Origin: Chaetoderma sp. LZ-2023a
Lineage: Eukaryota; Mollusca; Caudofoveata; Chaetodermatida; Chaetodermatidae
Direction: 5' to 3'
Assembly: GCA_034401795.1 (NCBI GenBank)
Contig: CM067372.1
Coordinates: forward strand, 18,503,924 to 18,567,923
Length of the DNA: 64,000 bases
The notes under the pieces were generated by a model. The model did not search any database. It was not told the DNA's origin and was given only the letters and a program-made list of their open reading frames with translations. The translations under genes were made by a program, and so were the position numbers. The number at the start of each line of letters is the position of its first letter. Position 1 is the stretch's first letter. Shown piece by piece: positions 36,701 to 37,926 of the stretch.

Positions 36701-37926
36701 AATTATGAAAATCGTCCACGTGAATGGCCCGTTCCTTCCATTGGTCAATCTTCAAAAGTAGTCTTTTCTTGGCCTTTTAAATGTACATTTAATGAGCAAA
36801 ATCTTCACTTTTCCTGCAGAACCTGTCTTTGGCCGGTTTGACCATTAAAAACATGGTCAAAATTGTTCAGAAAATATAAATTCTGCCATAGAGAATGTTA
36901 ACTTTTGGAATGACTAGCTTGCTTACTGAGACACTCATTCCAGTAGTCAGTTTTCTAACATATTTTTCTCATGTTTACAAACTCAACATCTCTCCAGATA
37001 ACTGTGGAACCCGCTATTTGACAATCTTGACTATTAATGTGTTCAGCAGAGGCAGTTCATCAGGTGTGACTGTCAATATCTCTTTATTGTTCATTTCAGG
37101 TCCGGTATAAGTGAGAGTGCCTGTCAATTTGTTCATTTCAGCTCCAGTATAAGTGACAGTGCCTGTCAATATATGTCTGTTGTTCATTTCAGGTCCAGTA
37201 TAAGTGAGAGTGCCTGTCACTATCTGTCTGTTGTTCATTTCAGGTCCGGTATAAGTAAGAGTGCATGTCAATATCTGTCTGTTGTTCATTTCAGGTCCAG
37301 TATAAGTAAGAGTGCCTGTCAATATCTGTCTGTTGTTCATGTCAGGTCCAGTATAAGTGAGAGTGCCTGTCACTATCTGTCTGTTGTTCATTTCAGATCC
37401 GGTATAAGTGAGAGTGCCTGTCAATATCTCTTTATTGTTCATTTCAGTTCCAGTATAATTGAAAGTGCCTGTCAATATCTGTCTGTTGTTCATTTCAGGT
37501 CCAGTATAAGTGAGAGTGCCTGTCAATATCTGTCTGTTGTTCATGTCCGGTCCAGTATAAGTGAGAGTGCCTGTCACTATCTGTCTGTTGTTCATTTCAG
37601 ATCCGGTATAAGTGAGAGTGCCTGTCAATATCTCTTTATTGTTCATTTCAGTTCCAGTATAATTGAAAGTGCCTGTCAATATCTGTCTGTTGTTCATTTC
37701 AGGTCCAGTATAAGTGAGAGTGCCTGTCACTATCTGTCTGTTGTTCATTTCAGATCCGGTATAAGTGAGTGCCTGTCAATATCTCTTTATTGTTCATTTC
37801 AGTTCCAGTATAATTGAAAGTGCCTGTCAATATCTGTCTGTTGTTCATTTCAGGTCCAGTATAAGTGAATCGCCATACTATGATATGTTGAGAGCGAGGA
37901 GAAAGAAAGTGGTAAACGTCAAATGA
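8464..37926 (+). CDS. CYTH: Cytohesin-family Arf GEF, C-terminal 274 residues in 8 exons (5' part outside window)
   Basis: Spliced join of 8464-8544, 14552-14664, 16429-16577, 17685-17796, 25181-25257, 27698-27848, 36057-36126 and 37854-37926. Every junction is GT-AG and the phases agree through to a TGA. The product matches cytohesins along its length: second half of Sec7 ([58 protein letters not shown]), the linker [17 protein letters not shown], a PH domain ([10 protein letters not shown] to [11 protein letters not shown]) and a basic tail (RARRKKVV). Cytohesins load GTP on Arf proteins at membranes, recruited by PIP3 through the PH domain. The Sec7 catalytic Glu lies in an upstream exon that I did not find here. 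PH type is diglycine (QGGR). By GRP1 numbering from memory, K273, R277, K282, R284, Y295, K343 and H355 are kept, R305 is Lys and N354 is His. Seven introns of 1.1-8.2 kb are filled with transposons and minisatellites. The orthologue subtype cannot be assigned, since invertebrates usually have one cytohesin. Confidence 0.96.
8545..8765 (+). repeat. Partial tandem duplications of cytohesin exon 1 3' end and donor
   Basis: The block CCTGAAA...AATTTACATGAATTC...TTGAG plus GT recurs with donors at 8659 (GTAGGC) and 8760 (GTAAGC), besides the real donor at 8545. The spacers are (ACGC)n tracts. Copy 2 would encode [14 protein letters not shown] residues. Copy 3 lacks 17 bases. Neither has an acceptor of its own. 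Confidence 0.85.
8890..9120. repeat. Short inverted repeat and MITE A-like hairpin fragments
   Basis: GTTGTTGCTG at 8910 pairs with CAGCAACAAC near 8974. An ATATTTTGAAATTAATTTGA fragment follows at about 9091. Related hairpins occur in the 50340-51785 element. Confidence 0.45.
9120..11697 (+). mobile_element. Tandem about 615-bp repeats with Helitron-like 3' end
   Basis: The same phrase (CTGGGCCGATTTCAATTATA, GGCAGGAAGCATCCTTAGGG, GGCCATCTTGGATT) restarts at about 9122, 9742, 10353 and 10973, a period of 611-620 bp. A partial fifth copy follows at 11360-11580. The right end, 11661-11697, is CAGGTGAGCGACACAGG, then a GGCCC/GGGCC hairpin and CTCTTGTTAG. I recall this combination from bivalve repeats; a Helitron-like assignment is inference from the hairpin near the 3' end. 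No ORF with a helicase was seen. Confidence 0.6.
12008..12571 (-). pseudogene. Reverse transcriptase fragment (DIRS-like)
   Basis: 187 codons with RT blocks in order: [35 protein letters not shown] (catalytic Asp), [26 protein letters not shown] and a HIDD box where most RTs have YxDD. The SIDLKDAY and S-A-P-x-x-F/C-T layout is the DIRS/PAT type. The frame stops soon after the HIDD box, at 12008. Confidence 0.8.
13291..13554 (-). pseudogene. Gag-like acidic fragment of the same element
   Basis: 87 codons, Glu/Asp-rich, with [12 protein letters not shown] near the end, similar in feel to DIRS ORF1 products. It lies upstream (in minus sense) of the RT frame and is separated from it by stops. 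Confidence 0.45.
14308..14382. repeat. Short palindrome (MITE A-type hairpin)
   Basis: GTTGAATATTTCGAACATAA and its complement flank GGATTGGAAGACATT/AATGTCTTCCAATCC. It forms a 75-base hairpin 170 bases upstream of the exon 2 acceptor. Confidence 0.8.
14413..14494. repeat. (GT)n/(GTGC)n microsatellite
   Basis: Alternating purine-pyrimidine tract just before the exon 2 acceptor. It creates spurious Cys/Val/Arg ORFs. Confidence 0.9.
14552..14664 (+). CDS. CYTH: Cytohesin exon 2 (Sec7 motif 2, hydrophobic groove)
   Basis: Acceptor TATATTCAG, donor GTATGT. It encodes [20 protein letters not shown] followed by [17 protein letters not shown]. The [15 protein letters not shown] stretch is the most conserved Sec7 signature and forms the groove that contacts Arf. 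The residue after RMME is Cys where vertebrate paralogues have Ala. Confidence 0.97.
14796..15937. mobile_element. Non-autonomous hAT-type element with 8-bp target duplication
   Basis: Terminal inverted repeats TAGGCTTGCACGATTTT at the left and AAAATCGAGCAAGCCTA at the right. Both sides are flanked by the 8-base direct repeat TTTGAAGC (14788-14795 and 15938-15945). An 8-bp duplication and TAGG..CCTA-like ends are typical of hAT elements. At 1,142 bp it has no transposase frame. It lies in cytohesin intron 2. Confidence 0.85.
15946..16234. other. Intronic sequence with short TTTTCATTTTCCTTGTTAC repeats
   Basis: Four short direct repeats around 16055-16130. No gene seen. Confidence 0.6.
16235..16378. 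mobile_element. Family B MITE, truncated
   Basis: Has the CTTGATAACCGAGCCAGTC core and the AAATTTTCAAAAATAGTC arm. It ends 50 bases before the exon 3 acceptor. Confidence 0.6.
16429..16577 (+). CDS. CYTH: Cytohesin exon 3 (Sec7 C-terminal helices)
   Basis: Acceptor AATTTCAG, donor GTAAGC. It encodes [19 protein letters not shown], then [20 protein letters not shown] and [11 protein letters not shown]. The open frame continues into intron for some 35 codons, including a poly-Leu run from a TTG repeat. This is read-through, not exon. Confidence 0.97.
16820..17670. repeat. 29-30-bp minisatellite in intron 3, ending at the exon 4 acceptor
   Basis: Unit GTCATACCTGAGGGAGTAAC plus TGTTTTGTT, about 28 copies. 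The 5' copies are more divergent (GATTATTTTCATACC). The last unit runs directly into TGTTATATTTTCAG, the exon 4 acceptor. Confidence 0.95.
17685..17796 (+). CDS. CYTH: Cytohesin exon 4 (Sec7-PH linker and start of PH)
   Basis: Acceptor ATATTTTCAG, donor GTAAGA. It encodes [20 protein letters not shown], then [17 protein letters not shown], and ends one base into a Gly codon. This is the Sec7-PH linker that takes part in autoinhibition in cytohesins. In vertebrates a 3-base microexon at this junction creates the triglycine form. A 3-base exon in the 7.4-kb intron that follows could not be seen by eye. Confidence 0.96.
18181..19270. mobile_element. Fold-back element with about 250-350-bp inverted arms
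   Basis: The left arm 18181-18540 (AGGACGCAG, CTATGTTTAATGTATACC, GAAGTGAAATTATTAAATTG, GACATAAAATGGCG) pairs imperfectly with the right arm 19020-19270 read in reverse. The arm module also resembles sequences in the hAT element at 14950-15200 and at 35310-35530, so one family is likely. It has no coding frame and lies in intron 4. Confidence 0.65.
18224..18252. repeat. (GTGC)n microsatellite
   Basis: GTGTGTGCGTGCGTGCGTGC tract inside the left arm of the fold-back element. Confidence 0.85.
19578..19765. mobile_element. Family B MITE
   Basis: Arms GGTCTTGAGAAATTTCCATT and TTTTCAAAAAATAGTCTTCC. The core is shortened (ACTGGCTCATTTATTCC). Confidence 0.65.
19766..20552. other. Intron 4 sequence, nothing recognised
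   Basis: Contains short direct repeats (GGCGGTCAGCCAGTCAG region near 19796-19860, and a 55-base repeat with TGTGTTATCCACACTGATAT near 20454-20545). No exon-like segment seen. Confidence 0.45.
20553..20690. mobile_element. Family B MITE, half copy
   Basis: Begins TTTAACCCTGTAGCACTCAT, then GCAGTGGTCTTGAGAAATGT and GACTGGCTCAATAACCGGC. The second arm is lost. Confidence 0.65.
21160..24325. repeat. 19-bp minisatellite in intron 4, about 3.1 kb
   Basis: Basic unit GTGCAGTGTGTGTCACTAA with variants TCGCTAAG, GGCCAGTGTTTGTTGCTAAG and TATCGCTAAGCACAG. Larger blocks recur, for example the stretch with AGTGTGTCTATCGCTCACA near 21994, 23694 and 24128. Confidence 0.95.
24326..24907. other. AT-rich intron sequence with (TA)n tract
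   Basis: A TA dinucleotide run occupies about 24744-24790. No exon or RNA gene seen. Confidence 0.7.
24908..25150. mobile_element. Family B MITE next to exon 5
   Basis: Core GACTGGCTCGATAATCGAGC with perfect arms CCACTGGAAT/ATTCCAGTAG. It ends about 30 bases from the exon 5 acceptor. It could form a strong hairpin in the pre-mRNA. Confidence 0.8.
25181..25257 (+). CDS. CYTH: Cytohesin exon 5 (PH domain, phosphoinositide pocket)
   Basis: Acceptor TTTCTGTAG, donor GTAAGT. It encodes [17 protein letters not shown] then CLYYFEYTT. It carries the K-X-R-X-R-type basic patch and the tyrosine that bind the inositol head group. The joined codon plus the first codon give two glycines (diglycine form, which in vertebrates favours PIP3 over PIP2). 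Confidence 0.96.
25430..27255. repeat. 47-bp minisatellite in intron 5, about 39 copies
   Basis: Unit AGGCTTGTCTCACCTGACCC then ATCACTTTTGTGTTTGTGGG and GTAGAGA. Copies become more uniform towards the 3' side; the first few have GAGCC and GTAGTGTAACGAAAGCTC. A minus-strand frame at 26162-26464 is a repeat artefact. Confidence 0.95.
27268..27455. mobile_element. Family B MITE
   Basis: Core GACTCAATAACCGAGCCAGTC with arms CCACTGGAAT/ATTCCAATGG. It lies between the 47-bp array and exon 6. Confidence 0.7.
27698..27848 (+). CDS. CYTH: Cytohesin exon 6 (PH domain)
   Basis: Acceptor ATGTTACAG, donor GTGAGA. It encodes [18 protein letters not shown], then [17 protein letters not shown] and [15 protein letters not shown]. 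The Lys in KEPKGI stands where GRP1 has Arg305. The Lys of KACK corresponds to GRP1 Lys343. Confidence 0.96.
27909..28115. repeat. (TCTG)n-rich simple repeat in intron 6
   Basis: Tetranucleotide CTGT/TCTG runs interspersed with TTGCTGTTTGTCTG-like units, directly after the exon 6 donor region. All overlapping frames are artefacts. Confidence 0.85.
28219..28400. repeat. Left inverted terminal repeat of DIRS element
   Basis: CACTTCAAGAGTATACTTAC, CTAACACTTTGATATT, GACTTTCACTCAATAAACAC and CGCATGCGAAGACTAGCACT match the reverse complement of 34598-34805 with scattered differences and a short indel. Confidence 0.85.
29027..29320 (+). pseudogene. Cys-rich N-terminal frame of DIRS ORF1
   Basis: 97 codons with [20 protein letters not shown] then CNICKQW-type spacing (four CxxC/CxxH pairs), then a Lys/Arg/Glu-rich coiled region. 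This looks like a zinc-binding module at the start of the element's first gene. It overlaps the next frame in another phase. Confidence 0.5.
29290..30129 (+). pseudogene. Gag-like ORF1 of the DIRS element
   Basis: 279-codon uninterrupted frame starting [20 protein letters not shown]. It is Gly/Ser/Pro/Val-rich and low in secondary-structure signals, and ends with an acidic tail. No recognised domain; position before RT makes it gag-like. Confidence 0.6.
30494..31036 (+). pseudogene. Second gag-like frame of the DIRS element
   Basis: 180 codons with an alpha-helical, Leu/Arg-rich front ([19 protein letters not shown]) and a Gly/Arg/Pro-rich end like an RNA-binding tail. It probably once continued from the frame ending at 30129; 30130-30493 holds stops. 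Confidence 0.5.
31190..31980 (+). pseudogene. DIRS reverse transcriptase, frameshifted
   Basis: The fingers and first catalytic block are in one frame ([30 protein letters not shown], 31310-31640). The second block is in another ([22 protein letters not shown] at 31726-31752, [15 protein letters not shown]). The change lies near 31638. YIDD supplies the catalytic Asp pair. DIRS-class sequence style is clear. Confidence 0.85.
32160..32560 (+). pseudogene. RNase H region of the DIRS element
   Basis: [10 protein letters not shown] (near 32172) matches the first RNase H aspartate block, [10 protein letters not shown] (near 32346) the DN block, and HIPGK (near 32478) the final block. Stops and frame changes separate them. 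Confidence 0.7.
32512..33006 (+). pseudogene. DIRS pol region between RNase H and recombinase
   Basis: Frames here carry [32 protein letters not shown] and similar blocks found in DIRS/Ngaro polyproteins after RNase H. No separate enzyme domain seen. Confidence 0.55.
33040..33960 (+). pseudogene. DIRS tyrosine recombinase, frame-broken
   Basis: The N-terminal SAM-like part is open at 33093-33509 ([18 protein letters not shown]). The catalytic part has HSVRGVVAS at 33794-33820 and, in another frame, FTDHYLRD with the candidate nucleophile Tyr at 33903-33905. HxxR followed by Y matches tyrosine recombinases. At least two frame changes make it inactive. Confidence 0.75.
34443..34537. repeat. 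Internal complementary region of DIRS element
   Basis: The left half is the reverse complement of the element's extreme left end (GTATACTCTTGAAGTGAAG). The right half is the reverse complement of the extreme right end (TCACGAGAGAGTTGATACTT). The two halves share GTGTTAGGGAGGTAAGTAT in opposite orientation, so the region can fold on itself. Confidence 0.9.
34598..34805. repeat. Right inverted terminal repeat of DIRS element
   Basis: AGTGCTAGTCTGTGCATGCG, GTGTTTATTGAGTGAAAGTC and GTGTTAGGGAGGTAAGTATC are in opposite orientation to the left end. Confidence 0.85.
34939..35654. mobile_element. MITE with TACC...GGTA-type inverted ends and internal palindrome
   Basis: Left end TACCATATATTTATCCCAAT, right end TAATTAGGATAAATACGGTA in reverse. 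Inside, CAGCTTCCGCTATAGGACGA (35150) faces TCCTCTAGCGGAAGCTG (35290). The 35310-35530 part shares a module with the element at 14950-15200. No coding frame. Confidence 0.65.
35690..35865. mobile_element. Family B MITE, deleted core
   Basis: Arms ATGTCCATTTGCAGACCAAG and TACTACTGGAAGGACTGGCT are present; the downstream arm is mostly lost. Confidence 0.6.
36057..36126 (+). CDS. CYTH: Cytohesin exon 7 (PH C-terminal helix)
   Basis: Acceptor ATTCACAG, donor GTGGGT. It encodes [18 protein letters not shown] then WMSCI, ending two bases into an Arg/Ser codon. The invariant PH-helix Trp is present. HH replaces the family's usual NH. Its 3' partner is exon 8, reached across an intron containing many look-alike acceptors. 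Confidence 0.95.
36310..36568. repeat. 62-bp tandem repeat in intron 7, 4 copies
   Basis: Unit begins CAGCTGACAGTTCACAGTGC, then TTGGATTAAGCAGACTATTA and CTCACAGTCACAGTCACACA. It lies between exon 7 and the 51-bp array. Confidence 0.9.
36630..36850. mobile_element. Family B MITE, diverged
   Basis: Arms ATGATCATTTGCAGACGCAG and CAAAAGTAGTCTTTTCTTGG. The core is poorly kept. The 3-kb duplicated segment begins at its right end. Confidence 0.5.
37085..37853 (+). repeat. 51-bp minisatellite made of reiterated exon 8 splice acceptors
   Basis: Sixteen acceptor-bearing units counting the real one. Each has TGTTGTTCATTTCAG followed by GTCCAGTATAAGTGA, the same as the real acceptor and first 15 bases of exon 8, then GAGTGCCTGTCAATATCTGT. 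Unit length 51 keeps frame; the 17-codon repeat reads [17 protein letters not shown]. One unit (37545) has lost AG, and a 2-base deletion near 37766 breaks the frame before exon 8. Some units start with ATCC or TTCC, recurring in a 3-4-unit pattern. Confidence 0.95.
37854..37926 (+). CDS. CYTH: Cytohesin exon 8, terminal coding exon with stop
   Basis: Acceptor TTCATTTCAG. It encodes [20 protein letters not shown] then NVK and TGA. It matches the family C-terminus (family pattern SISRDPFYDML followed by basic residues). The basic tail helps membrane binding and autoinhibition in known cytohesins. The first 15 bases and the acceptor are reiterated upstream in the intron 7 minisatellite. Confidence 0.95.

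Follow-up and report, generated by a model that had tools for sequence, protein, structure and literature searches.

Immediately upstream of the last coding exon of a cytohesin gene in the mollusc Chaetoderma sp. LZ-2023a lies a 51-bp minisatellite whose units repeat the intron-exon boundary itself. Nearly all of the units consist of a pyrimidine tract followed by AG and could thus act as 3' splice sites. The array lies in a 64,000-nucleotide window of contig C14, from a genome of 2.44 Gb in 2753 contigs that was searched for the comparisons below. It is a new example of the 'mirage' minisatellites previously described in lancelets. The account that we consider probable is that its length differs between two haplotypes and that splicing proceeds mainly to the last acceptor, with use of the upstream decoys minor at most.

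The host gene was identified by joining the seven cytohesin exons of the window, which yielded a peptide of 247 residues that matches cytohesin-3 end to end (E = 6.3e-126), and the gene has the arrangement expected of a cytohesin, with Sec7 and PH domains followed by a helix and a polybasic tail. The joined peptide begins downstream of the N-terminal part of the protein, which is encoded beyond the window, where C14:18486322 gives one more Sec7 match; exon limits were set by AG and GT dinucleotides together with the protein match. On the plus strand, exon 7 (36057-36126; exons are numbered as in an initial annotation of this DNA) ends with ...TGTATTAG before GTGGGT in phase 2, with a translation that aligns to cytohesin-3. 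The coding part of exon 8, which includes the stop codon and encodes the helix and polybasic tail, occupies 37854-37926, with the true last acceptor at 37854. Its start aligns to cytohesin-3 at KSIK|ASISRDPFYDML..., and the point at which repeats would be inserted aligns to KSIK|ASISRDPFY. The initial annotation had put this point between the PH helix and the tail. In the cytohesin fold, however, the site presumably still lies within the final turns of the PH C-terminal helix.

Tandem Repeats Finder places the array, hereafter copy A, at 37066-37868 on the plus strand, with a period of 51, 16 copies, a score of 1228 and 87% matches. It contains 15 acceptor-like sites, from 37100 to 37803 and numbered A1 to A15, in addition to the true acceptor. 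The repeated unit combines some 36 bases of intron with 15 of exon; the first 15 bases of exon 8 are exactly those held in common with the units, and beyond base 15 the exon is unique. The AG is retained at 14 of the 15 upstream sites, the exception being 37550, which is preceded by CG, and TTCATTTCAG is exact at 13 of them. Identity to the real acceptor is found at 2/15 sites over -36..+15 and at 4/15 over -20..+3. Scored with a generic weight matrix, typed by hand, the real acceptor reaches 9.1, while the upstream sites of copy A divide into six at 9.1 or above, four at 8.2-8.9, four at 6.0-6.6 and one at -2.3. A score as high as that of the real acceptor is therefore reached by 6/15 of the copy A sites, against 0.4% of the 4222 AGs elsewhere in the window.

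Beyond what the initial annotation had recorded, the window contains an assembly gap of exactly 500 N (40236-40735) and, directly behind it, a second copy of 36841-40219 (40736-43806, plus strand), which probably represents an alternate haplotype. This second copy carries its own array, copy B (40961-41412, plus strand), with 8 acceptor-like sites from 40995 to 41347 (B1 to B8) plus a true acceptor, and an exon 8 coding part (41398-41470, plus strand) identical to that of copy A. All eight upstream sites of copy B retain the AG and three score 9.1; in both copies the decoy directly before the true acceptor is one of the weaker sites (6.6). When aligned, the two copies differ by 29 substitutions in 2364 bases from exon 8 on and by 3 in 225 in the left flank, or about 1.2%. 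They overlap suffix-to-prefix and lie on the same scaffold in the same orientation, 3.5 kb apart, and an unplaced contig of exactly 17,000 bp, C1366, ends one base before the first base of copy B. With the best candidates of the genome search scored, the array and tail peptide were found at these two places only and the exon-6 peptide occurred once; among the 100 matches listed for the 3' region, the two long ones are both here, the others being partial and repeat-like. Because of the end-to-end overlap, the substitution level of about 1.2% and the exact continuation of C1366 into copy B, we regard copy B as most likely the other haplotype. The simplest reading would be that one alternate-haplotype contig was cut by the scaffolder and its 3' piece set behind the primary contig. 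Since cytohesin exons 5-7 were not found as exact strings in C1366, that contig alone falls short of proving that the gene as a whole has a second allele. The copies contain 15 and 8 upstream units, respectively, and it is this difference that we would attribute to the two haplotypes.

Across both copies, 19 of the 23 upstream units measure 51 bp, the others being A1 (42 bp), A14 (49 bp), B1 (49 bp) and B4 (48 bp). Because unit A14 (37754-37802, plus strand) is 49 bp long, acceptors A1-A14 are out of phase with exon 8. When exon 7 is joined to any of these 14 sites, the predicted product ends ...FQFQYN and lacks the tail; joined to A15, the sole in-frame upstream site of copy A, it is predicted to keep the tail and to gain 17 residues. 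In copy B, seven of the eight upstream sites (B2-B8) are in frame, with a predicted open frame that runs on into the tail; the product of B1 is predicted to lack the tail. Splicing to A15 or to any of B2-B8 would thus extend the link from PH domain to tail, and splicing to A1-A14 or B1 would give a product without the tail; in copy A, the extra acceptors would for the most part break the protein's tail instead of extending it. The 49-bp length of A14 may itself be a sequencing or assembly error.

These results bear on the initial annotation in several ways. Its description of an array of reiterated exon 8 acceptors sharing 15 exon bases was borne out. Where it estimated about 14 identical or nearly identical decoys, 15 sites were found, 14 of them with the AG and two with full identity over -36..+15; the uniform unit length of 51 bp that it gave applies to 13 of 15 units in copy A and 6 of 8 in copy B. 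Its view that all of the decoy acceptors would lead into one and the same reading frame proved wrong for 14/15 sites in copy A, the array to which it referred, and for 1/8 in copy B, for which it mostly holds but which went unmentioned. In-frame addition of repeats is accordingly predicted as possible at one site in copy A and seven in copy B, the remaining sites being frame-breaking.

Mirage minisatellites have been described in the lancelet globins BflGb6 and BflGb9 and in Adh3, with troponin C and PGBD5 also cited (PMC3087553, PMC3902484). Regular splicing is reported to be undisturbed there, with support from RT-PCR (reverse transcription PCR). As in BflGb6, the cytohesin unit joins the 3' terminal part of an intron to the first bases of the exon that follows, a boundary defined here by protein match, and as in the lancelet arrays, splice signals are retained in many but not all units. 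Unit number is reported there to differ by haplotype (6 and 3); the two copies here, which would be haplotypes on the probable reading given above, have 15 and 8 upstream sites. The unit of 51 bp compares with 150-160 bp in BflGb6 and 10-72 bp in Adh3. Unlike the lancelet examples, the present array lies in a mollusc, in a cytohesin and before a terminal exon, has 15 and 8 upstream units, and is known from DNA, whereas regular splicing in lancelets is backed by RT-PCR. Human CBS provides two further parallels. In 844ins68, a duplicated intron 7/exon 8 junction leaves two acceptors in competition, with a strong preference for the distal one (PMC2630376, where the wording is 'donor'; the title of Romano 2002, cited there, has 3' splice site); it is a single 68-bp duplication, and thus a two-copy analogue rather than an array. 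The 31-bp variable-number tandem repeat c.1444_1467+7 (PMC2630376) resembles the cytohesin array in being variable in length (16-21 repeats) and in having a unit that spans an exon end and intron; its position name, however, puts it at a donor, and its unit is shorter. A single query combination pairing cytohesin with minisatellite retrieved no paper on this locus.

In the history that we favour, a short tandem duplication spanning the junction of intron 7 and exon 8, taking in about 36 intronic and 15 exonic bases, would have been expanded by slippage or unequal exchange into the array. Repeated duplication across the boundary, as the initial annotation proposed, is supported by the sequence itself. 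Copy A has the order of unit types a b c d e c f g h c f g c i g, and copy B has j k l m n o f g. The pair f g stands before the exon in both copies, in copy A as i g, type i being f minus two bases, and copy A repeats the block c f g. This order would fit an older duplication followed by local block amplification and later indels. Selection of the last acceptor could be explained by exon definition, through the unique remainder of exon 8, its 14-base purine run and the terminal-exon setting. The array units lack such a run: purine 8-mer windows number seven in exon 8 and zero in both arrays. Because of the frame-breaking unit lengths, the one lost AG and the lancelet and CBS 844ins68 precedents, we favour a mirage that is mostly neutral for splicing. 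Several observations weigh against it. With the generic matrix, the score of the real site is equalled or exceeded by 6/15 decoys in copy A and 3/8 in copy B; the upstream acceptors are transcribed first; in copy B, 7/8 upstream sites are in frame and open to the tail, just as a coding ladder would want; and the role of the exon 8 purine run as an enhancer is putative.

The best surviving alternative, although an improbable one, is that proposed in the initial annotation, an isoform ladder in which splicing to upstream acceptors extends the end of the PH helix by blocks of about 17 residues and thereby tunes autoinhibition. The link to autoinhibition is in print: helix and polybasic tail keep cytohesins inactive, and in vitro the proteins become active once the polybasic region is lost (PMC6948192, citing others). 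The length of 51 bp corresponds to 17 codons, several sites equal the real acceptor in local score, and frame and tail are kept at 7/8 upstream sites of copy B and at 1/15 of copy A. However, the tail is lost from 14/15 upstream sites of copy A and from B1, and the lancelet mirages are reported to be spliced normally. Nor do the units reveal a synonymous excess beyond expectation that so few changes could show: the 21 distinct substitutions among 51-bp units comprise 13 non-synonymous, 8 synonymous and 0 stop, where fractions of 0.70, 0.27 and 0.03 are expected, indicating no clear coding constraint, albeit with low power. The open frame of the unit was rejected as coding evidence; openness says little, because the unit is also open in one minus-strand frame and any given frame is open in 32% of random 51-mers.

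Slightly less likely still is that the frame-breaking decoys of copy A are used, giving a cytohesin without its polybasic tail that could be constitutively active. All 14 products predicted from A1-A14 are tail-less, and with their stop in the last exon they would not be expected to undergo exon-junction-dependent decay. The activation in vitro mentioned above agrees with such an effect, but a harmful allele is expected to be rare, and the 49-bp unit on which the frame shift depends might be a sequencing error. We give the two haplotypes a similarly small chance of yielding allele-specific cytohesin isoforms, one tail-keeping and repeat-extended and the other tail-less and deregulated. Least likely is a genuine local tandem duplication, with two terminal exons in a row and an array each, which the shared scaffold and orientation and the 3.5-kb spacing would suit, but which the 500-N gap, the suffix-to-prefix overlap with 1.2% substitutions, the exact continuation from unplaced C1366 with its round length of 17,000 and the single exon-6 peptide all oppose.

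Under the preferred reading of a length-variable mirage, the known range of boundary-spanning minisatellites grows to take in a mollusc and the terminal exon of a conserved signalling gene. A pair of alleles carrying 15 and 8 near-identical competing acceptors, for the most part in different frames, would offer a natural test of the choice that the spliceosome makes among equal 3' splice sites. It would also test the origin of new exons or introns, which are proposed to arise from mirage arrays in lancelet globins (PMC3087553).

How unusual such an array is was gauged from 19 arrays scored in the window, taken from 43 Tandem Repeats Finder rows with microsatellites excluded. Besides the 51-bp pair, two arrays have many acceptor-like sites (score >= 6), 27 at 16815-17676 on the minus strand and 7 at 60229-60585 on the plus strand, and six more have one or two. 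Because other arrays of the window have them, acceptor-like units alone are unremarkable; what is remarkable is the match to a real boundary. As a control we took 34 loci of the genome (30 of 134 kinase matches, the top-scoring ones, and 4 of 16 Sec7 matches), a weak control because the kinase loci are top-scoring and mostly long uninterrupted matches. An array lies within 60 bp of the domain match in 1/34 of these, and seems to abut a donor rather than span it. The 19 arrays cover 20136 of the 64000 window bases (31.5%), whereas arrays cover 2.8% of the control loci.

Several minor observations were made alongside. In another Sec7-domain gene, located on C11, an array with a 26-bp unit in about 17 copies (L004, 1061-1493) seems to abut the donor of an exon. 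The array at 16815-17676 is a 29-bp minisatellite that makes up most of the intron before an exon at 17685 and stops 8 bases short of the acceptor AG. A scan of 28000-46000 against Rfam gave no match at gathering scores. The intron that holds the 51-bp array also contains a 65-bp array, with 4 copies in the window (36316-36567) and 35 in C1366 (L026, 4531-6727). At about 28871-34818, a cytohesin intron holds a mobile element with putative reverse transcriptase and recombinase frames, judged by eye; C1366 has two diverged copies of it (L025/L026, 2157-14500), 76-88% identical in the listed pieces, which lie at another place and are joined directly to the equivalent of 36282. Elsewhere in the genome, matches to PF14830 (44 in all), which is the molluscan haemocyanin domain and so points to a mollusc, are repeated at equal scores on C8 and C17 and at similar ones on C1610, and these may be further haplotype copies left in the assembly.

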